This document shows, piece by piece, positions 103 to 20,221 of a DNA stretch of 20,221 nucleotides. The position numbers were made by a program, and so were the translations under genes. How positions within the stretch are numbered: the stretch's first letter is position 1; the number at the start of each line of letters is the position of its first letter. The notes under the pieces are model-generated. The model was not told where the DNA came from. It made no database searches and was given only the letters and a program-made list of their open reading frames with translations. The stretch covers positions 5,406-25,626 of the forward strand of contig JAMYWO010000136.1 in the NCBI GenBank assembly GCA_024220525.1. Direction: 5' to 3'. The stretch comes from Cochliopodium minus (Eukaryota; Discosea; Himatismenida; Cochliopodiidae).

Positions 103-110
103 TAATATAA
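103..110 (+). promoter_or_regulatory. TAATATAA motif before the 235-residue ORF
   Basis: TAATATAA ends 3 bp before the ATG at 114. The same or nearly the same octamer occurs before the second ORF (828-835) and the fourth (TAATATAT, 2803-2810). In DNA this AT-rich such a motif can arise by chance, so a shared promoter element is only a suggestion. Confidence 0.25.
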
Positions 111-113
111 AAT

Positions 114-821
114 ATGGCTAATAATGGACCAACAAGTTGGGTTGAACATTCTGAGGAACAAAGGGGTGCGCTAATAAGATTTATGTTAGTTGATCCTAAT
201 AATAGAGCACCAGATGTAAGTGATGTAAATCCATTAAATGTTAATGATGGAATTTTTGGAAGAGCAGGAGGTTCTTCAATTTTTGGGAAAAATTATAATA
301 CGGATATGTATCCTAACAAAGGTGAAATTAAGACTTTTAAAAAAATGGCTTTAATAAATTTAAGGGAGTATTTGGATCCATTGAATTTTGGGTTTAGATC
401 TACTGTGAGTGATAGAGCAATTGCACTACTTTATGGCAGTGCTCCAGATGGATCAGGAGGTAGTGATTCAACACAAAGAAAATTTACTAAAGTTTCTTTT
501 GGAGATGCTGATTCAAGAGAAACAGGTATTGATAAAAAAGTATTTGATAGAAGTGTAACATCAGATGCAATTTTAGCTCCTGATAAATACATAATTAGAG
601 CAAATGAAGATTTGAAAAATATTGAAGAAAAATCTTTAAAAGTATATAGAGAGAGTTTTTCTAAATATTATGATGAATATAAATATACTGCTGAAGATGC
701 TAAAAAAATGGCAATGCAGGATAGACAAGTTTATTATGGTATGTTAAAGAAACAACATGATGAAATATACAAAGCTGATTTATTCAAACAAGCAAAGAAA
801 AGAATTAATAAAAATGTTTAA
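114..821 (+). CDS. Unknown 235-residue protein of the virus-like block
   Basis: This uninterrupted ORF starts at an ATG 4 bp after a TAATATAA motif and is followed 36 bp later by the next ORF. I do not recognise the family. The N-terminal half is rich in Gly, Asn and Asp (for example FGRAGGSSIFGKNY near residues 49-62). The C-terminal third (about residues 160-235) is strongly charged and probably helical, with many Lys, Glu, Tyr and Asp, ending in a basic tail (KQAKKRINKNV). There is no signal peptide or membrane segment. A structural role in a virion would fit the neighbourhood but is only inference. No competing long frame overlaps it, so the coding call itself is solid. Confidence 0.6.
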   Translation: MANNGPTSWVEHSEEQRGALIRFMLVDPNNRAPDVSDVNPLNVNDGIFGRAGGSSIFGKNYNTDMYPNKGEIKTFKKMALINLREYLDPLNFGFRSTVSDRAIALLYGSAPDGSGGSDSTQRKFTKVSFGDADSRETGIDKKVFDRSVTSDAILAPDKYIIRANEDLKNIEEKSLKVYRESFSKYYDEYKYTAEDAKKMAMQDRQVYYGMLKKQHDEIYKADLFKQAKKRINKNV

Positions 822-827
822 ACAAAA

Positions 828-835
828 TAATATAA
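828..835 (+). promoter_or_regulatory. TAATATAA motif before the 403-residue ORF
   Basis: The octamer TAATATAA lies 22 bp before the ATG at 858, inside the 36-bp spacer between the first two ORFs. It repeats the motif found before the first ORF. Its role as a promoter is inferred only from position and recurrence. Confidence 0.25.
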
Positions 836-857
836 ATTTATTAATTAATTTTATATT

Positions 858-2069: not shown

Positions 2070-2081
2070 ATAAAAAATGTT

Positions 2082-2098
2082 GTTATTTATATAATAAC
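2082..2098 (+). promoter_or_regulatory. Small hairpin abutting the start codon of the 226-residue ORF
   Basis: GTTATT and AATAAC form a 6-bp perfect inverted repeat around TATAT, ending exactly one base before the ATG at 2099. It contains a TATATAATAA stretch that could serve as a promoter core. The stem is only six mostly A-T pairs, so a functional RNA hairpin is doubtful. Confidence 0.2.
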
Positions 2099-2779
2099 AT
2101 GAGTAAAATTATTGAACTAAAAAATAAATGTGATTTATCACAAGTCGCCAATAACAAATATGCTGATTCAAAATCCTCTGAATTACCCATTGTTTCTGAT
2201 TTTGATTTTGAAAATCCATTAGATAATAAAAAACATGCAAAAACTTTTGATTTTACATCATTACCAATAGTACCACACAAACCAGATCCAATTTTAACTC
2301 CTGGTGAAATTAAAGAAAAAAGAAAATTGATTATTCATATTAAAAATTACATTAGAGAATTTCCAACGAGTTTAAATGAATTTAAAGAAATAGACTATGG
2401 AGGTAAATCAATTCAACAATTAAATAATTATCTTGAAGAAATAAAAATGACTGTTTGTCATTCAAATAGTGGTGGATTATTATTAGGTTTATTTCAAGGA
2501 GGATGTGATGTTTTGGAATCTGTAGCACCAATGATAAATTATGATTTAACAGGATTAAAATTTGTCGCTACCAAAAATCCAAATGTTATTAACTCAGTAA
2601 AAGAATTGTCACTTGAATATCAAAATCTAAATTATATTCCACCTGAAAAAAGATTAGCCTTGTTGATGTTTCAAATGTGTTATGCTTTAAATTCAATGAA
2701 TAAAACAAACAAGAAAATTGATGAAAAACTTGAAAAACCTTTACCAGAGAATATAAATGAGAAATACGTAGAATTATAG
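2099..2779 (+). CDS. 226-residue protein, possible conserved virus-element protein
   Basis: The start is the ATG directly after a small hairpin (2082-2098). Residues 1-70 are polar and Asp/Lys-rich, probably disordered. From about residue 70 (TPGEIKEKRKLIIHIKNYI) to about 200 the protein looks folded and mostly helical. It contains a Gly-rich hydrophobic stretch (GGLLLGLFQGG, about 127-137) and a helix ending LALLMFQMCYALNSMN. The arrangement of a charged helix, a Gly-containing amphipathic segment, a 'DLTGL' turn and a final hydrophobic helix resembles, from memory, a small protein shared by Polinton-like viruses and some giant viruses. I cannot confirm that without a profile search. It lies between the 403-residue ORF and the small hydrophobic ORF in the same direction. 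Confidence 0.55.
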   Translation: MSKIIELKNKCDLSQVANNKYADSKSSELPIVSDFDFENPLDNKKHAKTFDFTSLPIVPHKPDPILTPGEIKEKRKLIIHIKNYIREFPTSLNEFKEIDYGGKSIQQLNNYLEEIKMTVCHSNSGGLLLGLFQGGCDVLESVAPMINYDLTGLKFVATKNPNVINSVKELSLEYQNLNYIPPEKRLALLMFQMCYALNSMNKTNKKIDEKLEKPLPENINEKYVEL

Positions 2780-2802
2780 AAAGTTTAAAAAATATTTCTT
2801 AA

Positions 2803-2810
2803 TAATATAT
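2803..2810 (+). promoter_or_regulatory. TAATATAT motif before the small hydrophobic ORF
   Basis: TAATATAT ends 4 bp before the ATG at 2815, in the 35-bp spacer after the 226-residue ORF. It closely matches the motif before two other ORFs of the block. It may be a promoter element, or simply AT-rich background. Confidence 0.25.
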
Positions 2811-2814
2811 ACAA

Positions 2815-3050
2815 ATGGCTGATAATCGTACTTTTACAGAAAAATTAAAAGATGATCTCATTCCTTCATTGGCTAGTGGTGCTATTGGAGCGCTTGCAGC
2901 ATCATTTCTTTTAGGAGTTGATTTAACTATGGAGTTACCAATTGCAAGTATGAATCTTCCAGCGTGGGCAGCTATTGGAACTTCAATTGCTGGTGCAGAT
3001 TTGATAGCTTATGCTAGTCATGATTTTGTACTAGAAAAAATTCCAGCACT
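2815..3050 (+). CDS. Small hydrophobic protein, end lies beyond an assembly join
   Basis: The ATG follows a TAATATAT motif by 4 bp and the frame is open for 78 residues up to the N at 3051. The N-terminus is charged (NRTFTEKLKDDLIP). Two hydrophobic segments follow: SLASGAIGALAASFLLG (about residues 18-34) and a second around LPAWAAIGTSIAGADLIAYA (about 48-67), each rich in Gly and Ala, then an amphipathic end (SHDFVLEKIPA). It is probably a small membrane protein. Bases after the N match a host USP exon, so the residues that would follow in this frame do not belong to this gene and its true end is unknown. Two-helix Gly/Ala-rich proteins of this size occur in several DNA virus groups, but the family is not assigned. 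Confidence 0.55.
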
Positions 3051-3051: not shown

Positions 3052-3128
3052 AATGCACTTGACAATGTTTCTTTCTTGTTAGAGAAATAGAATGAAAAGA
3101 AAGGATTGAAAGCATAAAAGATTCTTTC
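3052..3128. repeat. 77-bp exact duplicate of 18703-18779
   Basis: Read on the minus strand, this sequence continues the USP exon frame (ERIFYAFNPFF and so on). In the other copy it sits inside the eighth visible USP exon. The minus-strand frame stays open on the other side as well, up to about 3160 (ESTFKNR before ERIFY). The piece may therefore be part of an exon of a second USP-like gene. Both copies are exactly 77 bp and both touch an N. Confidence 0.9.
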
Positions 3129-3355
3129 TCTATTTTTAAAAGTCGATTCTTTGAAGGTTCAAATTTGAAATTAATAAAAATTTTCAACATTCATTTCAAA
3201 TTCTATTTTTGGAAAATTGGAGCATGCTCCAAATTTAAGAATCGTTCAAATTTATTACGGAAAAATAATGTGTGAAGAGATTGAATAAGAAAATAATAAA
3301 TAAAGAAATAATAAAAAAAAATCAAAAGTTTAATTGAAATTTATAATCGATAAGC
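3129..3355. other. Short spacer with palindromes
   Basis: No gene is visible except a possible continuation of a USP-like exon on the minus strand to about 3160. Two perfect palindromes stand out: TTCAAATTTGAA at 3158-3169 and TTGGAGCATGCTCCAA at 3217-3232. The remainder is AT-rich and leads into the 416-residue ORF. Confidence 0.5.
3217..3232. repeat. 16-bp perfect palindrome
   Basis: TTGGAGCATGCTCCAA reads the same on both strands and includes a GC-rich core (GGAGCATGCTCC), unusual in this AT-rich spacer. It lies 124 bp before the ATG at 3356. A binding site for a dimeric protein is possible but not shown. Confidence 0.6.
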
Positions 3356-4606
3356 ATGAGAGGAGGTAACAAGAGGATATCTAGAAAGGATATGAAAAAG
3401 AAGAGGATGGATTTCCACAACAGGATCACACAAATCACAAACAATTGCATCCGCCTGAAAAATGACCTGAATGAAGCAATGGAACTAAAAAAGGAAATTG
3501 AATTATCTACAGAAGAAAAAAGGGGAGTCAAAGAATTGGTATCAAGGATGCGGGATTTCATTTCAGTGGATAATTGCCTCTACATTACACATACAGGAGG
3601 AATTAATGAATGGATTGATAAATTAACAAGTGAGATGAAGAAAAAGCTCTCAATCTTGATGGAAATGATGATTGAATGGATATCTCCATTTAGAAGAGGA
3701 TCTTTGGGCATGGAAGGAAAAATATTTATCCATGTTGATGATGATGAAATGATCCCAATGATCAAAGCTCTGGTGAATAACAAGCATTGGGAATACACAA
3801 GGAGATATGTCAACATGAAAGTCTTCCCAAACAGAAAGAATGTTCTCTCAAGAAAATGGCAAACAGCTGACAAGGAAGTATTCATTGATTTTTGCAGCAA
3901 ATTCAGGGTATGTGAAGGAAGGGATATAACTTCACAGAATTGGATTTTCCAAAACAACGTTGAGAAAAAAGTTTTCAAGGAGATTGACGGTGATATCGAG
4001 AAAACATCGTGTGTGAAGAAAAAATGCAAAGAAATAGGCTGGCATCACAACAATGGATCCATTAGCTTTAGAACTGTAGACATTGCTTTCGGGAAATACA
4101 CCAAGTGTGGATCCATAACCACAAGCAAATTTGAGAAAAATAAAACGGAAACAAAGTCCAAAGATCAAACTGATACTGAGGAAACCAAAGACATCGAGGA
4201 CAAGATGGATACCAGTGAGGGCAGCAGGACCAGTGAGAACAACAAGACTACCAAAACAACCAAGAAAAGTGGGAGCAGCGGGACAACCAAAACCACCAAT
4301 ACCAGCAAGAATACCAAAACAACCAAGAAAAGTGAGAGCAGCAGGACCAGCAAGAACAGTGGGACAACCAAAACCACCAAGACCAGCAATACCGATAACA
4401 GTGATCCCAGCGAGAACAATGAGAACAGTGATCCATCAGAGAAAGAAACAAATCCAAATGGAAAGGAAAAATTGGAAAAGGGGCAATCAATTGGAAAATT
4501 CACAATCCAATATCTTAAAGGTGTGTATCAAAACCAGAATGTTGGTTTCCTTCGATTCAATTGCAAATATAGACAATTTACTGATGGGAAATTGTATGGC
4601 AATTAA
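3356..4606 (+). CDS. Unknown 416-residue protein with Thr/Ser/Lys/Asn-rich tract
   Basis: This single open frame has no introns, unlike both host genes here, and is visibly less AT-rich than its flanks. Residues 1-60 are very basic and probably coiled-coil (RGGNKRISRKDMKKKRMDF, then LKNDLNEAMELKKEIEL). Residues about 70-265 look globular, with several Trp (EWIDKL, MIEWISPF, HWEYTRR, RKWQTAD, QNWIFQN), four Cys and acidic patches (VDDDE). Residues about 265-375 are a low-complexity tract rich in Thr, Lys, Ser, Asn and Glu, built partly from a tandem DNA repeat. A short C-terminal domain (GKFTIQYLKGVYQNQNVGF to the end) follows. I recognise no family, catalytic motif, signal peptide or membrane segment. 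The ATG at 3356 is the first in frame. It could be host, viral or carried by a mobile element. The coding call rests on length and composition. Confidence 0.6.
   Translation: MRGGNKRISRKDMKKKRMDFHNRITQITNNCIRLKNDLNEAMELKKEIELSTEEKRGVKELVSRMRDFISVDNCLYITHTGGINEWIDKLTSEMKKKLSILMEMMIEWISPFRRGSLGMEGKIFIHVDDDEMIPMIKALVNNKHWEYTRRYVNMKVFPNRKNVLSRKWQTADKEVFIDFCSKFRVCEGRDITSQNWIFQNNVEKKVFKEIDGDIEKTSCVKKKCKEIGWHHNNGSISFRTVDIAFGKYTKCGSITTSKFEKNKTETKSKDQTDTEETKDIEDKMDTSEGSRTSENNKTTKTTKKSGSSGTTKTTNTSKNTKTTKKSESSRTSKNSGTTKTTKTSNTDNSDPSENNENSDPSEKETNPNGKEKLEKGQSIGKFTIQYLKGVYQNQNVGFLRFNCKYRQFTDGKLYGN
4250..4395 (+). repeat. Imperfect tandem repeat inside the 416-residue ORF
   Basis: Two units of about 60-80 bp follow each other, each beginning AAAACAACCAAGAAAAGTG and continuing with GGACAACCAAAACCACCAA and ACCAGCAA. 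They encode the TKTTKK / SGTTKTT / TSKN blocks of the low-complexity tract. The second unit carries an extra stretch encoding SRTSKN. The copies are close enough to suggest recent slippage or unequal exchange, so this tract probably differs in length between strains. Confidence 0.7.
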
Positions 4607-5544
4607 AAATCTAAAAATAATTTTTTAAGAAAGGATAAATAAAATATATTTGAAATATAAATTATATTTATAAAAATATTGAGATTTTTAATTTGATAAA
4701 GAAATTGTAATGTTTACACAAATGATTATTTCTCTCATCAATTTTTGACAAAAATTATCCAACTTTCTGCACCTTTTAAATTATCATTTTGAATATTTTT
4801 CATTTTTTTTTTTTTTTTTTCATATTTGATTTGTGGTGAAAAAGAAAAGGCATCTCATCAATAAACTGTTTTATTGGAACTTGCAATAATTTTGTTGAAC
4901 GATGAGAAGAAATCATTTTTTTTTAAATTTTTTTTATAAGATAAGAATGAAAACAAATGAGAAGTTTGAATAGTAATTATTTTTAACAAACATTGATATT
5001 TTACACAAAATGAAAGAAATAACTTTTCTGTAGAAAGAAATATTGTTTGGATCATAACCAAAACAAGTTTAAATGAGAAGTTTTATTCGTAATTATTTTA
5101 AACATGGATTTTAATAATTTCAATATAATCAGAAATCACTTACCTTTCTTTTCGTATAAATTCCTCTTTCTATGTTTCTAGGAGGAGATAAGTTAATCAA
5201 CATAAATAATTTAACAAAAAAACAGATCATAGGATGAAAAATGGGTCAGATGTTGCATTCAATCTCTTGAGGAAAAGACAAACTATCCGAAAAAAAGATT
5301 GTCCTGGTCAACATTTGAAATAGCAGTTTTCCTAGTATTGTTTTCGTCGAAAACTTTAGACCCTTGCTGTTGATCAAATGATGATGAGATACTTATCCCA
5401 ACGAAGTAGCTGAGGAAGTACAAAGATTTAGCAGGTGAAACATTAAAGTGTTTGGAAATCCAAATATATATTTGGATGTGATGGGATTGATTTTGCCTTA
5501 TCTATTTTGACTTAAATTAAAAAAATTAATTAATAATCAACGGA
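4607..5544. other. AT-rich spacer, nothing recognised
   Basis: I see no gene, RNA gene or convincing exon here. There is an 18-base T run near 4803-4820 and several short A- or T-rich runs. Short open frames on either strand have no recognisable content. Confidence 0.5.
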
Positions 5545-5697
5545 TGGGTTAAATATGATAAAAATATTCTCACAAACTAGTTGAAAAAGGATCATGAAAG
5601 TGATGGATCAGGAGTCCTAAGTGAGTACACGAATGTATGGTGATGATTCCTATTTAAAATTTAGATGAGGAAGCAAAATAAAAAGTTTTATATTTTC
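5545..5697. repeat. Diverged repeat, copy 1 (partner 6598-6720)
   Basis: The two segments share, in order, 'aaatRtgatRaaaa', 'attctcacaa', a 'agttg' step, 'gtgtatggtgatgattcctatt' against 'cagtatgtgttgatttctatt', and 'gaggaagcaaaata' against 'gagaaagcaaaaat'. They are about 1.05 kb apart in the same orientation. Similarity was judged by eye and is broken by small gaps. Confidence 0.5.
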
Positions 5698-5749
5698 TGT
5701 TGTGAATGAGTCAACAGGTGTGATGGGAAAAGATGTCATCTATCTTTAA

Positions 5750-5935
5750 AATAAATTAAATTAATAAAATAAAATTAAAAATAAATAAACATACACCAAA
5801 AATAAAAATAAAATAAAATAAAAATAAACAAAAATTAAAATGAAATAAATAAAATAAAATAAACAATAAATATTAAAACAAAATAAAAAATGAATAATAA
5901 AAAAATTTAAAAAATAAATAAAAATTAAGTACTAT
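5750..5935. repeat. A-rich simple sequence (AAAAT-type units)
   Basis: About 185 bp made almost wholly of AAAAT, AAATA and AAAAATA units, with hardly any G and very few C on the + strand. On the minus strand it would be T-rich, like the introns of the two host genes, which fits a minus-strand transcript but does not prove one. Confidence 0.7.
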
Positions 5936-6009
5936 TTGATCGTTAGTTGAAATTAGAGAATAAGAAAGTTGGTGATAAGACTATCTAAAATAGAAAGTGG
6001 GAATGAATT

Positions 6010-6230
6010 GATGGAGCTCCATGAGAATATCTTTTAATTTGCACCATGAGTAACTGGAAAAGAAGTGCCAATGGATAAATTGGTTGTGAAGGTGAACCTG
6101 GGAAGGAGAAAAACGATCAGGGAAAGTTATGGAAGATACCCAAATGAACATGGGTGGTAGGGATTTCTGTTGAAGAAGAAGATAAAAATTTGATGTGCAT
6201 GGTACAAATATAAAAAATTAATTTCTTACG
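6010..6230 (-). repeat. Decayed spliced repeat, copy A
   Basis: The + strand has, in order, a GATGGAGCTCC..GAATATCTTT island (from 6010), a GGGAAAGTTATGG..AGATACCCAAATGA island (from 6119), a GGATTTCTGTTGAAG island and an AATTTCTTAC end. Read on the minus strand, the last two parts look like an intron: donor GTAAGAAATTAATTTTT from 6229 and acceptor TTCTTCTTCAACAG ending at 6167. That makes 63 bp, the size of the USP introns. The following exon-like stretch encodes HLGIFHNFP and then a TGA stop. Copies B and C have the same order. Confidence 0.45.
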
Positions 6231-6540
6231 TAAACAGAAACTTTTATGTAAAGAAAATTTTCGAAATGTAAAATTAAAAATAATTATAAAATCAAAAGAG
6301 ATCAATACATTAACAAAAAAAGATCCTTTATCTAAATATGAGCAATGGAAATGAAAGATCAAGTGTAAATAAGGAGAAAAAAAGACGTCCTTTCAAAAAA
6401 TAAATAAAATTAAGATTTTAAATTACAAAAAAAATAAAAATTAAATTTGTATTATAAAAAAAGTTACAATTAGGTTAAATGGGAGTAAAAGAAAGGATTG
6501 TTATGTGAACCAATTTAAATAGAGAAAATGTTGTGGATAA

Positions 6541-6633
6541 AACTCTCCAATTTTAGTAGATAGTGGCGCAAGCATGAAGGTTGGTATTTCAAAACTTGAG
6601 AAATGTGATGAAAAGATTCTCACAACCCAGTTG
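6541..6633 (+). mobile_element. Possible fossil of a retropepsin (LTR retrotransposon protease)
   Basis: A 31-codon frame contains SPILVDSGASMKVGIS: hydrophobic residues before Asp-Ser-Gly-Ala-Ser, the active-site pattern of the aspartic proteases of Ty3/gypsy-type elements. No gag, reverse transcriptase, integrase or terminal repeats are seen around it, so if the call is right it is a small broken fragment of an old element. A motif this short can also arise by chance. Confidence 0.3.
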
Positions 6634-6720
6634 TAACAGGAGGAATCAAGAAAGTGAACAGTATGTGTTGATTTCTATTAAAAAATTGAAGTGAGAAAGC
6701 AAAAATAAAATTTTAGATTT
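6598..6720. repeat. Diverged repeat, copy 2 (partner 5545-5697)
   Basis: This is the second copy of the repeat described at 5545. It overlaps the end of the retropepsin-like reading frame at 6541-6633. The earlier copy shows no such motif upstream. Confidence 0.5.
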
Positions 6721-7279
6721 AGGGTTTCGTAAATTGGTAAATAATAAAAATATTTAAAAATTTTAAAAAAAGGAGAATGTTTACAATAAAAAAGGACAAA
6801 ATGAAACTAACTTAAAAAGATGGAGAAATGTGGTATCGCAAACAGAAGCAAATAATGGGAAGACAATTCTATTTTTGAAATAAGTTGAGTAATAAAAATT
6901 TGATACCAATACAAGCAAAAAATTACCTGTAAATGTGAAGGAGAAAAAAAGAAGGTATGGGGAGTTGTCAAATTTGAAAATATGGAAGGAGGAAATTCAT
7001 CAGGTTAAAGTGTAAATCGAAGAAAACATTTCAAAAATATACAAGGAGAAGTGTAAAACTTGTCCTATTTTTGTTGTTTCAGAGTTGTTGTCAATATACC
7101 TACTGAAAATTTTTTGAAAAAATGTATAATTATTCAAAAAAATTTTAAGATTAAATGATAAAAGATGGAAAAAAAAATTTACAAAAAAAAAAAAAATTTT
7201 GAAAAATAAAATGAATTAATTTTGAAGAAGAAAAGAATAAAAATTAACATAAATTAAAAGAAAAATTTAAAAATAAAAG

Positions 7280-7716
7280 GGTTATACATATAAAATGAAA
7301 ATAAACGATTGCTCTCCCAATAGCTGTAAACTTCAATATTCCGTCGAGTCACAGAAAACTATGATGATAAATAGTGACTGGAAAGGAAACATTCAGAGAA
7401 AAATGTCATTTCTACATTTTTAAGAAATAAAAAAAGATTTGAATTTAGAAAAAATCATAAAATGAAAATAAATAATGAAAAATTTCATTAGATCAGAAGA
7501 ATTACAAAAGATCAAGCGTTACATCAGACAAAATTTAACCAATGAAAAAATGGAACAAAAGAGATCAATGGATGTTAACGAATTAACAACGGAACCAGTG
7601 AGCAGGCTTAGCTAATATGGAAATGGAGTGATGGAGCTCCAATAGAATATCTTTCAATGTGCACCAGTAGAAACTGATATAGAAGTGCTAATGGAGAAAA
7701 CGCATGTGAAAAAAAT
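7280..7716 (-). repeat. Decayed spliced repeat, copy B (first part)
   Basis: Islands shared with copy C in the same order: 'agggttatacata' with 'cgatt' (from 7279; copy C from 8872), 'aacaacggaaccagt' (from 7585; copy C from 8961), then 'gatggagctcc..gaatatctttcaa' (from 7630; copies A and C at 6010 and 9000) and 'gagaaaacgca'. The remainder of this copy continues at 8371, after about 650 bp that have no counterpart in copy C. Confidence 0.45.
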
Positions 7717-8526
7717 GAAAAATAAAATAATTAAAAAATATTATTACTTACAAAATTGAAAATTTAATTCAGTGGTTGAAAATGGGAGAATACCCGTTTT
7801 TCATATCCAGTGTGAACAGACTCCTTCAACAGTTGTGACGGGCTACTGGAGAAATTGTAGTTGAGATGGCAGTGCTGAGACTCTGATGACTTTTCAAATG
7901 AGTAAATGGACAAAAATGAGTAGGAACATCTAAGAAAATGAAGATGATGGAAAAAAGACAACTGATTGGGAACAAAGCGTCCAGAACTAATGCTTACAAG
8001 GGTATGCATGAAACTGAGACATCAACTGAGATGAGAATAAGATGGTTGGAGAACAAAGGAACAATGTGGTTGATATCAAATTTTGCCTTTGCCTATGAAT
8101 CCTAAAAATTAATTTCATCCAAATTTTATAGTTAAATTAAAATCAATTGATAAAAAATTTATTAAAATACCTTTGGTGAGCGAAAACAAGGATAAATTTT
8201 CAAAAGTGATTGTATTGTTCTCATGCTTCAGGAAATTGAAATAATGTTCAAAAGACTAAGGATCAACAAGAAATTCTGCAGTAGGAAACAACGAAACCAA
8301 CATATTCAAGGCAAAAGGGAATGAAGGAATTTGTAGTACAAATTGCAATGGAAATAAAAGTTTAAAGTCAGGGAAAGTTATGGGAGATACCCAAATGAAA
8401 TGGTTGGTGGGATTTCTGTTGAGGGAGAGGATAGACATTTTGATCTTAATCTTTCATTAATAAATTCAAAATAAAAAGGAAAATAAAAATCAATTTCTTA
8501 CAAGAGCTCGAACCAAAGTGTTCCCT

Positions 8527-8783
8527 GAAACTAGCTCACTGTCCATCATTGTACTTGCATCCCATAGTCATGTTTGTGCTCTAATTTCAACAAGAATACC
8601 AATCAGAAGAAATCACCATGTTCTTGATCTCCCCCAAGTAATTGTCCCAAACCTTTGAGCATGAAAGAGATGAGGTTGGTTTGGGACAGTCAAAACATAA
8701 ACAAAAAAAAGGAAAATATATGAGAAAAATAAATAAATAAAATAAATTTGCAAAAAATATAATAATATTGTTATCTTCCCATG
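8527..8783. repeat. Long direct repeat, copy 1 (partner 9547-9786)
   Basis: Both copies start with GAAACTAGCTCACTGTCCATCA and then share AACAAGAATACCAATCAGAAG through to the exact 77-bp end. They differ by a short replaced segment and scattered substitutions. This copy holds an 11-bp perfect inverted repeat (8643-8653 and 8678-8688, TGTCCCAAACC) with a 24-base loop. Confidence 0.85.
8707..8783. repeat. 77-bp exact duplicate of 9710-9786
   Basis: The two copies are identical for exactly 77 bp, including the A-T rich tract and TTATCTTCCCATG. They differ on both sides: A against T before, TAAATT against N after. The length equals that of the other junction duplicates. Confidence 0.9.
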
Positions 8784-9546
8784 TAAATTTATAAAAATAA
8801 ATCCACACTCGGCATATAAATTGGCATTAACCAAATCATTATGCATAGCATTTATTTATATTAATTAAAAAGGGTTATACATACAAGCATATACGATTAC
8901 ATCTTGATGGAGGTTCATAATCTCCCAGACAAATGGAAAAGGAAATGTGTCAACAAGTAAACAACAGAACCAGTAGACACGACGGGAAATGAGAGTAAAC
9001 TGATGAGAATATCTTTCAAATTGCAACAGTAGCAACTTATATTGCTAACCGAGAAAACGCACGTGATGAACGAAAGGTATGAGAAAGATGATCTGCGAAA
9101 GTTATGGAAGAAACCCAAATGAGTACATGAATGGTATTGATGGAGATTTCTGTTCAGGAAGAGGATGGATACTTGATATCCTAATGTTCAAAAATGAAAT
9201 AAATATAAGACAATTTTAAAAATAAAACTAAAAATAAATTTCAAAATATCAATCTAAACGATAAATAAAAAACAAAAATAAAATAAATATTTTAAAAATA
9301 AAAATTTAAATTAAATTAAAATAAAATTCAAAAATAATAAAATAAAAATTAATTTCTTACAACAGTGCAAACCAAGTGTTCCCTGAAACTTTTCATATAA
9401 ATAATGAATGAAAACCAGACTAACTGTTTGCTTCACATCGAGTGAATCCTCGAACTCCTGCACCATCACCAAGATCTCTACACGATGTATAGTGTTGTAG
9501 AGTAGACCTTAGATAATTCTTGTCATACAAAATGATGTTGTTTTTG

Positions 9547-9786
9547 TGAAACTAGCTCACTGTCCATCAATGTAACTGGCTCAAGATCTCCAATGTCAAC
9601 AAGAATACCAATCAGAAGAAATCACCATGTTCTTGATCTCCCAAATAATTGTCCCAAACCCTTGCGCACGAAAGAGATGAGGTTGGTTTGGGACAATCGA
9701 AACATAAATAAAAGGAAAATATATGAGAAAAATAAATAAATAAAATAAATTTGCAAAAAATATAATAATATTGTTATCTTCCCATG
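9547..9786. repeat. Long direct repeat, copy 2 (partner 8527-8783)
   Basis: This second copy lies in the same orientation about 1 kb downstream. Its inverted repeat is longer and still perfect: ATTGTCCCAAACC at 9648-9660 and its complement at 9685-9697, 13 bp with a 24-base loop. The copy ends at the N at 9787. Confidence 0.85.
9710..9786. repeat. 77-bp exact duplicate of 8707-8783, ending at an N
   Basis: This copy ends immediately before the N at 9787, after which the sequence (GAACTCC...) no longer resembles the first copy. An assembly join is the simplest reading. The DNA upstream of the insulin-degrading enzyme gene may therefore not truly be this repeat array. Confidence 0.9.
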
Positions 9787-9787
9787 N
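9787..9787. other. Single N: assembly join upstream of the IDE gene
   Basis: The N follows the second copy of a 77-bp duplicate. The distance and even the order of the two sides are uncertain. Confidence 0.85.
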
Positions 9788-10170
9788 GAACTCCTTAATG
9801 AACATTTCCCAAAATAAAAATTTATATCTTTGTTTTCAATTGATTCCTTCAATTAATTATCAATAAATTTTGTTCATTATTTCAATCTGATTCATCGTTG
9901 ATTTTGATTTGACAAAATAGAATTTTCTTTTTACTTTTCAAAAAAATAAAATCATATGAAGGTGATGAAAAAAAAAAGGGATAGATAATATATCCATTTT
10001 ATTTGTCATCAAATTCGCTTTGAAGAAACCAAGGCAACTGCATATCCCAACACGATATGATAAAAAATCAAAAATTAATTCTTAAATTGCCATTCAATGT
10101 GTCAAATAATTTGACTCAAAAGAAAAAATAAATTTATTATTAAAATAAAATAAAAAATCAATTTCATTCA
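9788..10170. other. Upstream region of the IDE gene
   Basis: 383 bp of AT-rich DNA with no recognised gene. It should contain the promoter of the insulin-degrading enzyme gene, but no TATA box or other element stands out from the AT-rich background. The start codon context is TTTCATTCA followed by ATG. Confidence 0.5.
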
Positions 10171-13100
10171 ATGATTATCAAATCAGAAAACGATCAAAGG
10201 AAGTATAAAAATATCCAATTAGGTAAAGAACAAGAAATATAGAGGTTAAAAGAAAAAATTTAATTTATTTTTAATCCCTCATAGAGAACAAATTGGAAGT
10301 TGTAATCATCTCTGATAAAGGTATGGCAAAGAGATATTTTTATAAATGCAATATATATATATATATAAAAAATCTCTTTAAAAAATAGAATTGGAGAAAT
10401 CATCTGCATCATTGGATGTGAGAGTGGGGAATTTTCATGATCCACCAGAAATCCTTGGATTGGCACATTTTCTTGAACACGTAAAAACCTCAAAAAATAT
10501 TTTATTTTGTATTTAATATAATATTTTCTTTAATAAAAATAAAAAGATGTTGTTTCTGGGAACCAAGAAATATCCCAAAGAGAGTAAAAGAGAATTCTCA
10601 ATCTTATTGATCAAAAATTATTAACCATTAATTTTTTTTAAAATGGAAGGCTCTTATTCAGAATGTAAAAAAATTTTTTAATTGATGAAAAATATCAATT
10701 TGATAAAAAAACAAATATCTTTAAATCCAATAAAAATAATTATTTTTTGATAAATTAAATCAAATTATTAATCAAATTAGACATTTCAATGAACAGTGGA
10801 TCCAGAAATGCATCAACAGCGATAATAGACACTAGATATTTTTTCGAAGTGACGAATAGCGCCTTCGAAGAAGCGTTGGACAGAATCTCCCAATTCTTCA
10901 TTTCGCCTCTTTTCGATGAAAATTCTGTGGAGAGGGAAATCAAAGCTGTCGATTCTGAAAATGCAAAAAATTATAATAATGGTAAATAAAAAATTAAAAA
11001 ATAAAAATTATAAATAAACAATTAAAAATTTAAATTAAACTTTTAAAAAATATGAAACTATAATTTAAGAACAAAAAAAACTATTTTATAATTTAATAAA
11101 ATTTTTTTTTTGTTAGATTCTAGAAGGTTCTTTCAGCTCCATAGAGGTCTTTGCAAAAACAACCACGTAACATTCTTTTTTTTCCCTCAATATAAAATTA
11201 ATTTATAAAATCATTTTGTACTAGGTCTACTCAAAGTTTTGTAACAATTTTTTTTAAATTTTTTTGTTTTTATTTTTTTAAATTTTTTGTTAAATTTTTA
11301 TTTTTTGTTAAATTCTATTGTATTTTTTTTTTGTTATTAAATTTTTAATTAATGAATTATTTTTTTTTTAAGCCACAGGAAACTTGAAGACACTTTCAGA
11401 AATTCCAAAAGAGAAAGGGATAGACGTGAGAAAGAGAGTGATTGAGTTTTACGAAAAGCATTACAGCGCTAACGTGATGAAATTGGCCATTATAAGTAAT
11501 CAAGACATCGAAGTTATGGAGAAGTGGGTATAAAAACAAATATTTTTAATTTAATTTAATTTTAATTTTTTTTTACTTATTTAATAGTATTTAAATTTTC
11601 TATTATTTTTATTTTTTGAAAATTATATTTTATATTTAAATTAATGAATTTTTTTTTTTTTTTAGATGTCATTTATTAATATTTTTATATTTATTTTGAT
11701 CACTTTTGTTTTATATTTCGTTTGTTTTCACTTAATTTATTTACTTATTCTCTTTTTTATATTTTTATAGAATAATTATTTTTTAATTTTCGTCTTTAAA
11801 ATAGGTAGTGGAGAAGTTTTCGCCAATAGTTAACAAAGACGTGACGCCCATTCCATGGACAGACATGCCCTACTCCGAAAAGGAGCTCCAATCCATCGTC
11901 TATGTCGTCCCTGTCAAAGATATCCGTGAAGTTATACTCATTTTTCAACTTCCTTCCATGGACCAGTACCATAAAGAAAAACCTCAACTCATTTTGAGTA
12001 AAAATTTTTTTAAAATTTATTTATTTTAATTTTTTTAAAATTTGTTATTATTTATTTAAAATTAATATTAAATTTATCATTTTATTTAAATAATTTAAAG
12101 AAATTTTTATTTTTGTTATTATAGTTATTGTAAAATTTATTTCTAAAAAAACCATTTTTTTATTTTTCCATCATTACAAATTTAACTTAGTTATTTTAAA
12201 ATTTTTATTATTTTTTTAAACAAATTGTTTATATATGAATTTATTTTGTTTCTATTAAATTATTATTTTTAAATTATCATTTTTAAATTTATATTTTTAT
12301 TTTCGAAAAAAAAAAAGCTCATTTGATTGGACACGAATCAGAAGGATCAATTTTGAGCCACCTAAAGGAAAAAGGGCTAGCAACCTTATTATCAGCAGGA
12401 TGCTTATCCAACCCCATCTTCTCTCTCTTAATAGTTACCATCAGTTTGACCGATGAAGGTCTCAAAGAGAAAGATCGTGTTATTTCCCTCGTTTTCAGTT
12501 ACATCAACATGTTGAAGCATGAGGGCGTTCCTGAGCGTATCTTTGATGAAATTCAGACTATTAATGGATGCAAAGTAAAAAATTTCTTTTATAATTTTTT
12601 TAAAATTAGAATAAAAAAAATTATAAAAATTTAAATAATCTTACTTTGTAAATAAATGAATTGACAAAAAATTAAAATTAATATTAAAATTGTTTTCTTA
12701 ACTTAAACATTTATCTTTCTAATATATTTCTCTAATTTTGTTTTTCATTATTAATACGTTTTTTTATTATTGCCAAATAAAAATAAAACTTCTAATATGA
12801 CATCAACATTTCATTTTAAGTTGTTCAATTAAGTAAAATTAATCAACAATTAAAAGTAAAAAATTTCAAAATAATAAAAGAAATATTATTAATATTGTTG
12901 ATCAAAAATCTTTTATTTGCAAAATTGATTAAAAAATTTTTTTATTAATATTTATAGTTCCGCTATAAAGAAAAAGAAGAATCATCAGATTATGTGCAAA
13001 ATATAAGCTTGAGGATGCAAAGCTGCCCTATAAAAGACGTGCTGGTGCTGGATTACAAGTACGAAGTGTTTGACCAAAAGCTCATTCAAGACATCTTGAC

Positions 13101-16038
13101 CAAGTAATATTTTACTTTTCAAAAAAAAAAATTATTCTAATTATTATTTAATTTTCACAATTTTATTATTTTTTATTTTTTTACATTTATTTTTATAAAT
13201 CTATTTTTTATTTTTATTTTTTATTTTTTATTTTTTTACATTTATTTTTTATTTATTATTTAATTTTTTTATTTTATATTTTTTATTTTTTATTTTTTAT
13301 TTTTTATTTTTTATTTTTTATTTAAAATTTTATATTTTATATTTTATATTTTATTTTTTATTTTTTATTTTTTTTATTTTTTATTTATTATTGAGGTACC
13401 TCAACAAAGAGAACGTGATCATCTATGTCATCTCCAAGGCATTCATAGGCCAAACTGAATCGACCGAAGAATGGTACGACGTTCATTACAAACGCGAGAA
13501 GATTCCTAAAGAACTTACAAGTCTTATTGATAATCCTCCTGTCAAATGGGACAATTTGGAACCTCCTCTCCACTTGCCTTCTGAGTAAAAAATTTAATTA
13601 TTTAAATATTTGATAAAAAATTTTAAAAATATATTAATTATGAATAACATCAATTATTTAATAATAATTAATTAATTTATTTATTTGAATCTTTTTTTAT
13701 TTTTTTTTAATTCATATTAAAATTAAGAAATTCAATAAAAATTGATTAAAAAAATAATTTTAGAAATCAGTTCATCCCAAAAAACTTTGACATAAAAGAA
13801 ATAAACAACAGAGTGGAAATGCCAAAGCTAATAAGACAAGAAAAGTTCTGCAAAGTGTGGCACAAACAAGACTTTAGCTTCAACCAACCCAAAGCAAACA
13901 TCACCTTCAACTTCTTCTCCCCCCCCTCCTACTCCTCTATTCCTAATGCTGTCATGTCGTCTCTTGTGGTCGATTTGTTGATGGAACAGCTTTCGATAAA
14001 GAACTGCTATTTCGCCCATTTGTCTGGCCTTTCTTACAAAATCTCCGACAACACTGTTGGCTTTGATGTCAAGTAGAAATCTTTCTTTTTTTTTTTGTTT
14101 AAAAACGTTTTTTAAAATTATTTTTGATTACTTTATTTGTTTTTTGATGTCAATATTAATGATTTTTTATTTCTTTTTAATCTTTTCAATTTTTTTTGAA
14201 ATCAAATTGATTCAACCAAATTCTTTCTTATTTTTTCATTTTATTTTTATTATTTCATTTTTTCTAAAATTTTTAAAAAATTTTGTTTCTTCATTATTTT
14301 TTTAGTGTCACTGGATTCAACGACAAATTAGAAGAACTGCTGTATTTCATAATGAAAGAGTTCAAAAACTTGAAATTCACAGAGAAACAGTTCCAAATCT
14401 ACAAAGAAAAAAAAGCCCACCACTACAAAGACTACCTGATGAACCAACCTAATGAACACGCCACTTACCATATCAGCCTTCTTCTTCAATCTCCCAAGTT
14501 CTCCATGTATGAATATGCCAGTGCTATTGACTACATTTCTTATCAACAAGTTGTCGAGCATTCCAAACTTCTTTTTCAAAGTATGTATTTTTTAAAAATT
14601 TTTTTTTTTATTTTTTAATTGTTTATTATTTTAAAAAATATCATTTGCAAATATTTTTAAAATCTTAAAAATTTTTTTGATTTAACTTTTTTATTTTTCA
14701 TTTTTATTATTTTATTTTAATATTTTTATTTTACTTATAATTTATTTTTATATCTTTATGAGGTTATTTATTTTGTTTTGTTTTTATTTTTACTATTTTT
14801 TTGTTTTTTATCATTTAATTTTTTAAGATTTGTCCTACGATGCACTCACGATGGGAAACTTGACCAAAGAAGATTCGTTGAGAATATCAAGGGGAATCGA
14901 CGAAATAATTTTCCACAAAGAAAACTATTCTCCTCTCTCCATTAACTCCAAAGTCGTCCAATTACAGGCTCCTCATTACCTATATAAAGTCGATTCTCCC
15001 AACAAAAACGAGAAAAACTGTTCCGTCAGCATTTACTTCCAAATTGGTGATCAAGGTTATTTATTTTCAATTTAATATTTACCAACATTTTTTTTTGTTT
15101 AAAATTATTTATTTTTATTAATTTAAAATAATTTTTAAAAAGTAAATTCTTTTTTCTTTGAGAATTTCTTTCCTTTAATTTTATTAATTTTATATAATCG
15201 AAATTTATTAATTTTTTATAAAAGTATATTTTTTTGTTTATTTTTTATTTTATTTTTTTTTAAAATATTTAATTTTTAAAAAAAACTTAAAAAGGAAACA
15301 AAATGAGAGCAATACTGTCACTGTTCGCACAAATAGTGAAAGCAGACTGTTTCGCCCAGCTGAGAACAAGAGAACAACTGGGGTACTCAGTGGAGTCTCA
15401 CTCCAAAATCATGTTTACCGTGCCTGGCTTCGAAATCACCATTCAGTCCTCCGTCGCCACTCCTCAGTACCTCGAGTCTCGTATCGATCTTTGGCTTGAT
15501 AGTGTGGAGTCTTTGCTTTCTAACCTTGAAGAATTCAAGTTTCAACAGTACAAGGACTCCCTCATCATCACCAAAACTCGTCCGATTTTTTATTTTTTTT
15601 ATATCGTCTTTTTCTAATTTTATTTTGTTTATCGAAATAATTTCATTTTTATATTTTATTCTTTGATAAATAATAATTGTCTATTTGTTCAATTTCTTTT
15701 ACTAATTTATAATTATTTCTTTTTTAGAACCATTCAAAAGACTGAACGAAGAGAAAGTGGTATACATCGAAGAACTTTTGATCCAAAAATACGTCTACGA
15801 CCGTCGCTTCATCGAAGCAAAAGAGCTAAAAGGGTTATCCAAAGAAGATGTCCTCTCATTTTACAGGAAATACATCAAGAAGTGTTCCCCTCAGCTACAC
15901 AAGCTCTCTTCTTGGGTTTTTGCTACGGTTCCTAGCGACAAAGTTCTCTCTTTGGAGAATTTTGACTACAATAGCATCCATCTCATTCCCGATTTACAAC
16001 AATTCAAATCTTCCCAAAAGTTTTTCAGTAATTTGTGA
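10171..16038 (+). CDS. IDE: Insulin-degrading enzyme (M16A zinc metallopeptidase), 18 exons
   Basis: Splicing gives a 948-residue inverzincin that degrades short peptides in a closed chamber. Exons: 10171-10222, 10285-10320, 10389-10480, 10547-10583, 10650-10664, 10781-10981, 11117-11166, 11225-11240, 11373-11527, 11805-11997, 12318-12574, 12958-13103, 13396-13584, 13764-14072, 14306-14580, 14828-15055, 15295-15579, 15728-16038. All introns are GT-AG and phases agree throughout (2847 nt). The zinc motif HFLEH is at residues 56-60, and the third ligand Glu137 lies in AVDSENAKN, 81 residues after the first His as in human IDE. ALDRISQFF, VVPVKDIREV and LIGHESEGS follow. The C-terminal half has LRTREQLGY (774 and 781 match the substrate-binding Arg and Tyr of human IDE). 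The start aligns about 52 residues into the human protein, so there is no mitochondrial leader, and the C-terminus is about 20 residues short. All catalytic residues are present, so it should be active, probably in the cytosol. Confidence 0.95.
10351..10367. repeat. (AT)n run in IDE intron 2
   Basis: About eight AT units lie within the 68-bp second intron. It is a candidate microsatellite with no other visible role. Confidence 0.8.
10650..10664 (+). other. IDE: 15-nt microexon of the IDE gene
   Basis: The piece GCTCTTATTCAGAAT is flanked by AG and GTAAAA. With one base from the exon before and two from the exon after, it encodes SSYSEY. The spliced sequence KKYPKE-SSYSEYIS then aligns without gaps to KKYPKENEYSQFLS of human IDE. 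Without this exon the protein would lack five residues beside the active site. Confidence 0.85.
11225..11240 (+). other. IDE: 16-nt microexon of the IDE gene
   Basis: GTCTACTCAAAGTTTT lies between TACTAG and GTAACA and encodes VYSKF plus one base. Joined to CCACAGGAAAC after the next AG, it gives YSKFSTGN, matching FSKFGTGN of human IDE. The alternative acceptor six bases later (CACAG) would create a stop, which supports the site chosen. Confidence 0.85.
13184..13392. repeat. ATTTTTT-type simple repeat filling IDE intron 12
   Basis: Most of this 292-bp intron consists of ATTTTTT and ATTTT units in near-perfect tandem, with almost no G or C. It ends in TTATTGAG, which serves as the acceptor. 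This composition helps explain why the intron is several times longer than the smallest in this gene. Confidence 0.8.
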
Positions 16039-16427
16039 TGCTTGGGCTTTAATTAATTAAAATATATTATATTAGTTAGAACATCAACCTTCAATTAAGA
16101 TGCGTTTTAATTCTTGATTCTTTGCTTTTAAAAGATTGAAATCATATGATCAAAATACAAAAAAGATGATCAAAATATCTATATTTTTTCCGAAACACTG
16201 GGGTGTTCCCTAAAAAGTGAAGATGATTTTCAATATTGATGTGAGATAATTTAATTTAGAGTTGGTGAATCCGTTTAATTATCTGTTCAAAGTTCAGAGG
16301 TTAAATTGAAAGAATAAATAGTGCTGAGGATAGAACACTTCCTTGTGGGGTACCGCTATGTATGTTGAAGTTTTAGAGATGTCCAAAAATTACAAAACTG
16401 ACTTGCAACAAAAAAAATTTATAAGTT
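16039..16427. other. Space between convergent IDE and USP genes
   Basis: The 3' ends of the IDE gene (+) and the USP gene (minus) face each other across 389 bp. The stretch holds the reverse-transcriptase remnant at 16301-16372. The only AATAAA on the + strand, at 16313, is 275 bp after the IDE stop, so polyadenylation sites are not obvious. GAACACTGGGGTGTTCC-like bases near 16193-16210 form a weak inverted repeat. Confidence 0.6.
16301..16372 (-). mobile_element. LINE-type reverse transcriptase remnant
   Basis: The minus strand reads NFNIHSGTPQGSVLSSALF followed by ILSI and a stop. SGTPQGSVLSPxLF is the classic motif upstream of the catalytic Asp pair in reverse transcriptases of non-LTR (CR1/Jockey-like) retrotransposons. 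Here one Pro of the SP pair is replaced by Ser, and the frame closes after 23 codons. The catalytic motif YxDD is not found. Upstream codons are in keeping (VSFVIFGHL) but are interrupted by a stop. This is a short, dead fragment. The last USP exon ends 56 bp away, so a retrotransposon insertion may have cut that gene copy. Confidence 0.7.
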
Positions 16428-19400
16428 TTACACGTTATTAAATAATATTAAAACATCTTCATCATTCTTTTCATAGCCAACTATTTGTTGTTCAAAATCA
16501 ATCTTGAAAGGATGAATCTGATAGTTCAAACAAAAATGAAAAAAAACAACTCCATCGTTCTTCCCATTAATAAAATTTAGATCTTCAAAAGAGTAGATCA
16601 CAGATTTGTATTCACTATTAACAAAATGTTTTCTTTTCTCAATTTTTAATTGTTCTTCTAAATATTTTATTTTTTCCTCTTTTGCTTCTTCTATTTTGGA
16701 ATTGGCTATTGAAAAAAATTCAAAATGAAAAAAAAAAATTTATTTATTTTTTTTTTAAATAAAAAAAAACCTGTATTTTCATTGTTGTTCTCTAATGTCC
16801 CAAAGGATAGCACTCTTTTCACATTATCCGAAGAATGAAGATCTATAAATTCATATCCCAAGTGAGAAAAGATTTCTTTCAACACAAATAGATTGTCAAC
16901 ATTTTTTGGCAATGAAAATAACATTGAATAACACTTATTTATTTCACTAAAAAATGATTAATAATTATCCTTTAAAAAAAAATAATAATGAAATTTTTAC
17001 CTGTTTTCACATTCTATTATTGAAAACTCTTTATACAAAAATTTTTTGACCTCTTCTCTTTCTTGAATCGTTTGCTGAAAAAAATCAACTTCCTTATTTT
17101 TTACATCTATTTTTAGAAAATAATTGTTTGTTCCAAGTTTTTCAATCAACAACAAATCCAAGTTTTTGAGCAATGATAATTGAGAGTTGATGTCAGTGAG
17201 TGAATTGCAAGAAAGATAGGAAATGGTTGGTTTTTTGAGGAGACTGGGTTCCACAATAAATGTTTTTGAAAATTCCAATGAAGAGTTTCTAAGAGGAAAA
17301 GAAGTTGACTTTTTTTTGTACATCAAAAGATAAACATTTTTTTTGTATTCCCAATTTTCAAAAGTATCATAAATCTGTGTTTGTTTTTTAAAGTCACTTT
17401 CAAACCAAGAACCAAAATAAGAAACAACATTTTTGTAATGTCCTAGAAAAAAAAAAAAAAAAGTAAATAATATGAAAAATGTTGAATAAAAAAATGGAAA
17501 AATAATACCTTCTGTTTTGTCTCCATCATAACAAACAAAATTATCCAAAACATATTCTGAAGTTTCACTCAAACTTTGAATTGAAAGATTTCCTGAAAAT
17601 GAGATCAAATTTTTTTGTACAAAATTTGATCTCACCACATGAAAGATGAATGTGTCAGGAAGATCCAAAAGATAGTGCTTTTTGCAATGATTTTTGAGAT
17701 CGCATCCACTTTTTTTACAATTAAACTGAATGATTTCTTCTTTTGTTTGGTTCAATAAAAGATCTTCAATTGAGTAGTTTTTCCCATCAGGGATAGTGAG
17801 ATTATATATCCATTCTATATCTTTTCCTGTTGAATTTGGAATGTTGTTACTATGGATTGTTTCTTTGAGAACATTAAAATTCACAAACTCGCAAGTGATT
17901 GGGGAGTTTTCTATCAAAATCTCCAAAACTTCCATACAATCATTATGATATCCTTTTCTAAATTTTGGAAATTTTTTAAAAAATGATTCATACAGTTTTT
18001 TCCAATAAAACTCAAAAACTAGTTTGTCTTGAACTCTAAAAATATCAAACAATAGTTCATGAAATTCCTCTCCTTCAAAAGATCCAACTTTGCTTAAAAT
18101 TTCTTTTTTGACTATGTCGATTCTCACGAACATTTGAATGGCCGATCCAAGGAAACAAGAATTTCCAACATCCTCAAATGCAAATGGATGTTCTTTAATT
18201 AATTTATTAATTAATTAATTTGGAAAATTTTATGTTTTACCAAGATTATTTGTTGTGGGTACATAGTGAGAGAGATAAGGATACAATTCTAATATATTTT
18301 TTTTCAACAATATTTTAATTTTTTTTTTGTTGAGGAAATATTTATTATCAGAAAAAATTTTATTAAAGATATAATTGCCTTGTTTGTTATTGCTGATTAT
18401 AGTATTTGGAGCTTTGTCTTTGACATTCTGACGATCCAACAAATTTTTGGCGACTGGTGTAGTTGGAGTTTGAGAAACTGAGCCTATTTAAAATTATAGA
18501 AAGTTTAATAATAAAAATTTAAATTATTTACCTTCCTCAACAAAGTCGAAATTAACTTGAAAGATTTTCCCAATGTTTATTTCCTAAAAATGAAAAATTA
18601 AATGAACAAATTAAATTTAAATATTTTGATTATACCTCTAGATTATATCCTCTCACTTCATTATGAAAACAATTTTTGAGCACATTTTCGAAATTCCTTT
18701 TGAATGCACTTGACAATGTTTCTTTCTTGTTAGAGAAATAGAATGAAAAGAAAGGATTGAAAGCATAAAAGATTCTTTCNTTCTATCATTTTGGCGAACT
18801 TTGCTCATTGCTTGTTCCAATTCTTCAAAAGAATCTTTGAAGATGAACTTTTTTTTTACAGTTGGAATTTCTTTCAATTCAAGCAAATCTTTTTTGAAAA
18901 TTTGGATTAAACTTTTTTAAACAAAAAATGTTAATTAAATATTTACTTCTCCATAAAATAGAAGGATTCAAATCTGGTAAAAAGTCATTTACAACAAGGA
19001 TGTATTTTTGTGCTAATAATTGATAAAAAAGATGAAATTTTAAAGAAAAAAATTTGAAAAAATACCAAATGTAGTTTTCCAAAAATTATGATGAGGATAA
19101 TTTCTAAAGTGAGTTGCCAAAATATGAAGTGAATAAATATATTGGCTCTTTTCACTTGCCCTTTTCCCCATTGTCACTGTTCCTTTTGTTGAAAAATCGA
19201 ATAATTTCCTATGGTCAGCTTCTGGGAATTGTTCTGAGAAGCAATTTACTTTCAATCCTGGGAAGGTTATCCAAAGTTTTGAATTGTCAAATTTATCATC
19301 AGAAAAATTATAGACTTGAGTAAATTCGTTATCAAAGTAATTTTTGGAGTAACTATGTCTGGAATCATCTTCTTTTTCTATTACCTAAAAAAAATTTGAC

Positions 19401-20221
19401 GAAGAATAATTCAAAAATTAAAAAAAAAAAATGTATTTTTTACAATATTTCTTCTTTTTAAATCTATCCTATCTTGAATGTGTCTAGGTACGTCAACAAA
19501 GGGCTAAACAAAAGTTTAGTTTAAATATTTTAAAATAAAAGATTAAACCTTGTTTTTTTTTTCATTATCTTCTTTCAAATTTGTTTGATGAGGAATTGAA
19601 ATATTGTTTCTTTTTTCTTCCAAATTCTTTATTTCTTCCTATTGAAAATATTTTTTATTTAAAAGAAAAAAAAATTTATTTGATTACGATCTCAAGCGAT
19701 TCATCTTTCATTCCATCTAAATTTATTAATAAAAAATGATTTAAAAAGATAATTCATTAAACACTTTTACCATTGCAAGAATCATCTTCTTCACTCTCCT
19801 CTTCTCCAAATCCCAACGTATTTAAAAGATCGTCTTCTCTTGAACTATCTCCATCATTTTTTACTTCTTTTCCCTTCTCTCTTTTTGATTCTTTCTCATC
19901 AATGTTCAAAAGAGAATCCAAATCATTTGGAAATTTAGTTGAAGTACTCTTATCTTTTTCATATAAATCTTCGATTCCTTTTGTTTCAACAAAACTTTCG
20001 GAAATTGCCTTCATTAAAACAATTTCTATTGTGCTCATTTTCTCAAGTCTTTTTAATCAATTATTAATTTTATAAACAAAAATATTTAATTTTTTTTTTT
20101 TTTTTTTACCTCCACAAATCATCCAAAAATGAATAAATAATAGATAAAACATCTTCATCATTCTTTTCATAGCCAACTATTTGTTGTTCAAAATCAATCT
20201 TGAAAGGATGAATCTGATAGT
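16428..20221 (-). CDS. USP-type ubiquitin C-terminal hydrolase, 14 visible exons, 5' partial
   Basis: This cysteine protease of the UCH/USP family would cleave ubiquitin from proteins. Exons in order of transcription: 20221-20110, 20048-19771, 19716-19688, 19638-19549, 19503-19444, 19384-19066, 19012-18947, 18888-18636, 18583-18532, 18483-18241, 18192-17509, 17442-17001, 16946-16771, 16705-16428. Every intron is GT-AG, 45-66 bp, and phases agree everywhere except at the N (18780). The Cys box is EDVGNSCFLGSAIQMF (Cys codon 18155-18157). GYHNDCMEVLEIL matches the family's QQDxxEF box, and NCKKSGCDLKNHC a possible zinc finger. LPDTFIFHVVRS precedes the His box, which is split by an intron: CYDGDKTE-GHYKNVV (His codon 17438-17440), then NVYLLMYKK. 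An acidic Ser-rich linker (EEESEEDDS) and unrecognised regions surround the domain. The last exon has a coiled-coil segment (IEEAKEEKIKYLEEQLKIEKRK). The final residues ILFNNV may not be native. All active-site boxes are present. Confidence 0.85.
16449..16525. repeat. 77-bp exact duplicate of 20145-20221
   Basis: The duplicate lies in the last USP exon and encodes HPFKIDFEQQIVGYEKNDED. Its other copy forms the end of the window and encodes the same residues in the same frame. Beyond the duplicate this copy reads ILFNNV and a stop, whereas the other reads SIIYSFLDDLWR and continues through a splice site. Confidence 0.9.
18703..18779. repeat. 77-bp exact duplicate of 3052-3128
   Basis: It lies within the eighth visible USP exon, where it reads in frame (IFYAFNPFFSFYFSNKKE) with the downstream part of the exon. 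It ends right before the N at 18780, where the reading frame of the upstream part (SKVRQNDR) does not line up by one or two bases. Confidence 0.9.
18780..18780. other. Single N inside a USP exon
   Basis: The N stands for an unknown number of bases. Upstream codons end QNDR, and downstream codons begin ERIFY in another frame. A gap of two unknown bases instead of one would keep the frame. The mismatch is therefore better explained as an assembly join than as a damaged gene. Confidence 0.85.
20145..20221. repeat. 77-bp exact duplicate of 16449-16525 at the window end
   Basis: The window stops exactly where this duplicate is complete, as expected for a contig whose path ends at an already used k-mer. 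On the minus strand it is the start of the first visible USP exon. Confidence 0.9.

Follow-up and report, generated by a model that had tools for sequence, protein, structure and literature searches.

Is the 77-bp sequence that occurs twice at this locus a biological repeat, and do the pieces of DNA around it lie in the order in which they are printed? As printed, the window (the whole 20,221-nucleotide stretch of DNA analysed, C136:5406-25626) suggests that viral genes lie beside deubiquitinase and peptidase genes, and that a USP gene has extra 5′ exons. The sequence supports neither arrangement. The 77-bp duplicate is very probably an assembly mark, a de Bruijn overlap of K=77 between pieces set in a doubtful order, and not a biological repeat.

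Both flanks of the window on its contig (C136:1-5405 and 25627-40818) read N in the sequence examined, as gaps or masked bases, and the genome searched comprises 44.65 Mb in 598 contigs. The window contains three non-ACGT letters in all, at 3051, 9787 and 18780, and these single Ns divide it into four pieces:

1-3050, plus strand: piece 1, a virus-like block of four compact frames on the same strand
3051: single N at the join of pieces 1 and 2, from a letter scan
3052-9786: piece 2, with frame 3347-4606 and an 87% duplication
9787: single N at the join of pieces 2 and 3, from a letter scan
9788-18779: piece 3, with an M16 peptidase gene (plus strand) and a USP gene (minus strand), from Pfam and frames
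From about 10382, plus strand: M16 (insulinase-like) peptidase gene on piece 3, from Pfam and frames
18779 to 16449, minus strand: span of the USP gene on piece 3, from Pfam and frames
18780: single N at the join of pieces 3 and 4, probably a wrong join, from a letter scan and USP exon order
18781-20221, minus strand: piece 4, with 3′ USP exons printed upstream of the USP gene, from the order in a C49 paralogue

The frame at 3347-4606 in piece 2 encodes 419 residues with a part rich in Thr, Ser and Lys, and its best relatives in the genome lie on C243 (29%) and C147 (31%).

Exact 77-bp repeats at piece ends

Direct comparison confirmed the identity reported in the original prediction: 3052-3128 and 18703-18779 match for exactly 77 bp, and the adjoining bases, 3051 and 18780, are both N. 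In the genome search this 77-mer was found at two places, and both are piece ends. The original prediction lacked two further exact pairs that are present in the window, so that there are three in all, each with one copy that abuts an N or closes the window. The opening bases of piece 3 are shared in the same fashion with another contig. The sequences concerned are as follows:

3052-3128: copy A of the 77-mer, the opening 77 bases of piece 2, identical to 18703-18779
18703-18779: copy B of the 77-mer, the closing 77 bases of piece 3, identical to 3052-3128 and coding in the USP model
8707-8783: second pair, inner copy, identical to 9710-9786
9710-9786: second pair, end copy, the closing 77 bases of piece 2 before N 9787, identical to 8707-8783
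16449-16525, minus strand: third pair, inner copy, within a USP 3′ exon, identical to 20145-20221
20145-20221, minus strand: third pair, end copy, the closing 77 bases of piece 4 in the window, beyond which the contig reads N; identical to 16449-16525
9788-9864: the opening 77 bases of piece 3, with exactly 77 bp common to C86:91947-92023 (minus)

The longest exact direct repeat in control sequences (30 order-3 Markov sequences of window length) measured 16-19 bases. The match on C86 stops after exactly 77 bp, and the next base differs. Eight piece ends can be counted, two at the limits of the window and six beside Ns. Five have a second copy; for the other three (1-77, 2974-3050 and 18781-18857) none was found in the genome search. 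Longer similarities surround two of these ends: 9788-9962 recurs at two sites on C86 that lie about 2 kb from each other, and 8526-8783 is 87% identical to 9547-9786, about 1 kb away in piece 2. A graph would ordinarily branch at sequences such as the duplication where piece 2 ends and the C86 repeat where piece 3 begins.

The relationship between repeat length and N was examined in a sample of 33 stretches (232,628 non-N bases, about 0.5% of the genome), which was not random: such a pair was the reason for choosing the window, and the C86 stretch was included on account of its match. Nine maximal exact repeats of length 77 were found, and all nine abut N, as predicted for an assembly branch with K=77. 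Four of the nine pairs involve the window, one lies elsewhere on C136 and four lie wholly outside it, on C1, C2, C50 and C200; the C50 pair is a 27-bp tandem repeat. Above 77 bp the sample contains no exact repeat of 78-83 bp and one of 84 bp, the only one between 78 and 1237 bp, followed by repeats of 1238 and 2164 bp. None of these three longer pairs contacts N. Contact with N was also seen for 16 of 41 exact repeats of 60-76 bp, many of which sit at stretches resembling short-unit repeats. A second exact 77-mer was present in the sample for 10 of 39 N flanks and absent for 29, a count that misses partners outside the sample. Of 230,224 77-mers, 6,534 recur, and the two long repeats account arithmetically for almost every one of them.

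Those two repeats are exact direct duplications whose copies lie close together, one of 2164 bp (C1:8409-10572 and 10674-12837) and one of 1238 bp (C500:4037-5274 and 5678-6915); both are possibly assembly duplicates. The starts of C2, C100, C400 and C500 lie in exact repeats of about 60-72 bases with small-step offsets, as short-unit tandem repeats give.

Because every exact repeat of length 77 in the sample adjoins an N, and because the 3052/18703 77-mer occurs at two piece ends only, we read the duplicate as a K=77 overlap. De Bruijn edges that overlap by K produce repeats of one exact length where pieces end, and according to PMC7379835 adjacent edges overlap in this way in most de Bruijn assemblers. 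The same vertex of a K=77 graph would have been printed twice, at the end of piece 3 and at the start of piece 2, and a scaffolder would then have lined up the four pieces, separating them by single Ns. In the graph, piece 3 would run into piece 2, and piece 4 would run into piece 3 at 16449, which would make its place after 18780 wrong; the virus-like piece 1 would be tied to the remainder by N alone. A usual last K of SPAdes is 77, and the length presumably points to SPAdes as the assembler here. Scaffolders of the SSPACE or LINKS kind print a single N where a gap is judged negative, and we take the single N here to mark a join judged to overlap; confirmation of this single-N rule was not found in the portions of the literature consulted. 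Against the K=77 reading stand the N flanks and window piece ends that have no second copy, the composition of the sample, the tandem repeat on C50 and the 60-76 bp repeats at N, and read pairs may lie behind the scaffolder's joins. We claim no biological novelty for the duplicate.

The original prediction placed the branch between the virus-like block and the USP gene. A branch exists, but the block is not on it, since the last 77 bases of the block were found only once in the genome. The branch lies between the piece at 9788-18779 and the piece at 3052-9786. The related suggestion, that the sequence after 3128 is an alternative neighbour of 18779, is likely to be right, the genome search having revealed no third place for the 77-mer.

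The USP gene and the placement of piece 4

The frame at 18214-17000 on the minus strand was identified as a USP by its match to the Pfam family UCH (PF00443; E 3.3e-8, 33.9 bits vs a cut-off of 23.9). A four-exon model was built around it:

18779-18636, 18583-18532, 18483-18241 and 18192-16997, minus strand: USP exons, with introns of 52, 48 and 48 nt, all GT..AG

The only stop in the model is the frame end at 16997, and the reading frame is predicted to be open through copy B. As far as the model goes, this bears out the original proposal that copy B is native to a USP exon. When the USP frame is carried across N 18780 as printed, two stops lie directly beyond. On the piece 2 side the same frame is open for ten codons, and an acceptor-like TTTTAAAAATAG lies one base before the 77-mer. 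As a sign that USP continues there, this openness is weak evidence; the acceptor is predicted and the real gap length may differ. A separate frame, 18653-18916, is open across N 18780 and was considered as a USP exon, a candidate that was rejected on the ground that its frame differs from that of the spliced model. Apart from its own locus, the genome offered it only copy A and a single further match (E 0.84).

Piece 4 contains what appears to be the other end of the gene. Read on the minus strand from 20221 towards 19043, it presents further USP-like frames in the same order as in the C49 paralogue, and the exon that begins in the shared 77-mer continues in piece 4 to a GT donor. The inner copy of this 77-mer, 16449-16525, lies in an exon similar to the paralogue (E 3.7e-4 against a 1.7-kb piece of C49). 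Against the same 1.7-kb piece, the head of piece 4 matched at E 3.9e-4, mostly through the 77-mer itself, the next exon at E 0.001 and the last at E 2.0e-19; genome-wide, the last exon (19384-19043) matched the paralogue at E 7.4e-16. By arithmetic, the distance from the core to the last exon is about 1.3 kb both in the USP gene as joined to piece 4 and in the paralogue. Because piece 4 carries 3′ USP exons in paralogue order and ends in the 16449-16525 77-mer, the join at 18780 looks wrong, and on this comparison piece 4 has probably been set on the wrong side of the USP gene. Two caveats apply: C49:101802 has a further relative of the last exon, with no USP core reported nearby, and a second, upstream tandem copy of USP could account for the printed position of piece 4.

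The sequence that follows the inner 77-mer within piece 3 has a different character. The frames tested in 15900-16448 gave no match to the C49 piece at E 0.05. At a looser setting (E up to 10), many of the matches listed were short and chance-like, and one listed match, from the sequence left of 16449, covers 12 residues at E 0.011 on the other strand. The adjoining segment is a repeat:

16301-16448: dispersed repeat adjoining the third 77-mer, the minus strand of which reads GTPQGSVLSSALFILSI

Four further genomic sites carry parts of it at 85-92%, and it is a mosaic of two dispersed repeats that meet near 16373/16374. The GTPQGSVLSSALFILSI peptide encoded on its minus strand is, we assume, a reverse-transcriptase-like motif.

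The virus-like block and its edge at 3051

The genome searched is AT-rich and intron-bearing. The four compact frames of piece 1, two of which overlap (849-2069 and 2060-2779), are:

111-821, plus strand: virus-like gene 1
849-2069, plus strand: virus-like gene 2
2060-2779, plus strand: virus-like gene 3
2806-3050, plus strand: virus-like gene 4, cut at N

None of the four genes has a Pfam match above cut-off or a PHROGs match below E 0.1, and no viral hallmark family (capsid, packaging ATPase or polymerase) rose above the Pfam cut-off in the four frames, which represent a partial element only. When viral contigs were scanned for genes 1, 3 and 4, no relatives of the three were found. Profile searches against the PDB gave best matches at E 0.29 for gene 1 and E 0.034 for gene 3, with names that look unrelated, and the structure model of gene 1 has a mean pLDDT of 42.

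The block recurs with all four genes on C28 (C28:231387-235340) and C114 (C114:10062-13961), and a second place on C28 (C28:200518-203760) contains part of gene 2 and genes 3 and 4, followed by a run of N. On C28 at 231 kb and on C114 the block is followed by a frame with a cysteine- and histidine-rich start, and gene 3 in the former copy is divided into two frames. DUF5767, which one gene 3 relative matches below threshold, is a name also given to a gene of the alga virus CpV-BQ1 in PMC12085832. A block joined to host genes without a gap was not encountered; in the window there is N on both sides, and at the other copies about 3-4 kb each was read.

Gene 4 reveals most about the edge of the block. 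It matches its three closest relatives up to the last 1-2 residues before N 3051, beyond which the relatives share about 60 further residues and the window offers 12 other residues and then a stop. Copy A was accordingly considered as the true C-terminus of gene 4 (NALDNVSFLLEK and a stop, read across the N) and discarded, as the three relatives continue differently for about 60 residues. The C-terminal sequence shared by the relatives has nine matches in the genome, at the three relatives themselves and at six other loci of 37-48% identity, where open frames run to 113-151 residues; C1 carries one of the six. With sequence read at the three relatives, none of the nine was recognised as an orphan end belonging to piece 1. 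Since gene 4 departs from its relatives exactly at the N, piece 1 seems to be cut mid-gene and tied to piece 2 by N alone. Gene 4, and not the duplicate, is the better evidence for a cut at 3051. The original claim that linkage of 1-3050 to the remainder is unsupported holds, in that no sequence evidence for it was found, and the sequence gives no ground for placing the left-hand virus-like genes beside the host genes on the right.

Alternative readings and comparison with known systems

That the 77-mer is a true short repeat, found at two places which each lie near a gap for unrelated reasons, is highly improbable. The 77 identical bases do stand at two printed places, and copy A happens to extend gene 4 by 12 codons before a stop, but every length-77 repeat in the sample (9/9) touches N, only one exact repeat has a length between 78 and 1237 bp, and the other C-terminus of the three closest gene 4 relatives means that copy A does not look native. 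Real differences between haplotypes or gene copies, by comparison, are compatible with the K=77 reading as a cause of the branches, and we consider them possible, if doubtful. Of the two copies, one would have the dispersed repeat at 16449 where its counterpart keeps the normal 3′ exons, and the exit into piece 2 at 18779 would belong to one copy. A heterozygous insertion would give just this combination of a dispersed repeat left of 16449 and C49-like exons in piece 4; beyond such an insertion, however, the 3′ exons of USP should resume, and here the M16 gene follows instead. Moreover, such differences would account for branching of the graph and not for the printed order being right.

A third possibility concerns the join at 3051, which might be correct even if the 77-mer is an assembly mark, with a truncated virus-like insert followed by host sequence. 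Gene 4 does stop at the N, none of its nine C-terminal places was recognised as an orphan end (the loci of the three relatives having been read), and the presence of the family on several contigs makes integration plausible. Yet the last 77 bases of piece 1 were found nowhere else, the start of piece 2 already has a likely neighbour, and the missing part of gene 4 could sit in a stretch of N or in an unplaced piece; we consider a correct join unlikely. We give little credence to the broader proposal that the block is a truncated, host-integrated lineage of large DNA virus, unmatched in the libraries used and resident at many places in the genome, with its right edge truly at 3051 and the 77-mer an artefact.

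With the K=77 overlap retained as the explanation of the duplicate, the locus is of low biological interest, but it calls for care wherever an insertion is claimed. As a mark of fixed length, the 77-bp overlap would offer an easy, assembly-wide test for flagging joins before insertions, gene fusions or duplications are reported.

The block resembles endogenous large-DNA-virus blocks in protists in its compact same-strand frames, its repetition on other contigs and the sub-threshold DUF5767 match of one relative. It differs in that its four frames lack Pfam matches above cut-off and PHROGs matches below E 0.1, and in that the viral contigs scanned gave no relative of genes 1, 3 and 4. The single-N separators, seen here and on C1, C2, C10, C50 and C200, are like the joins made by scaffolders of the SSPACE or LINKS kind. 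Although some ends here have no partner, the 77-bp pairs resemble the overlaps of a de Bruijn assembly (SPAdes-type, K=77) in their exact length of 77, in their position at piece ends and in their recurrence on five scaffolds (C136, C1, C2, C50 and C200) and between C136 and C86.
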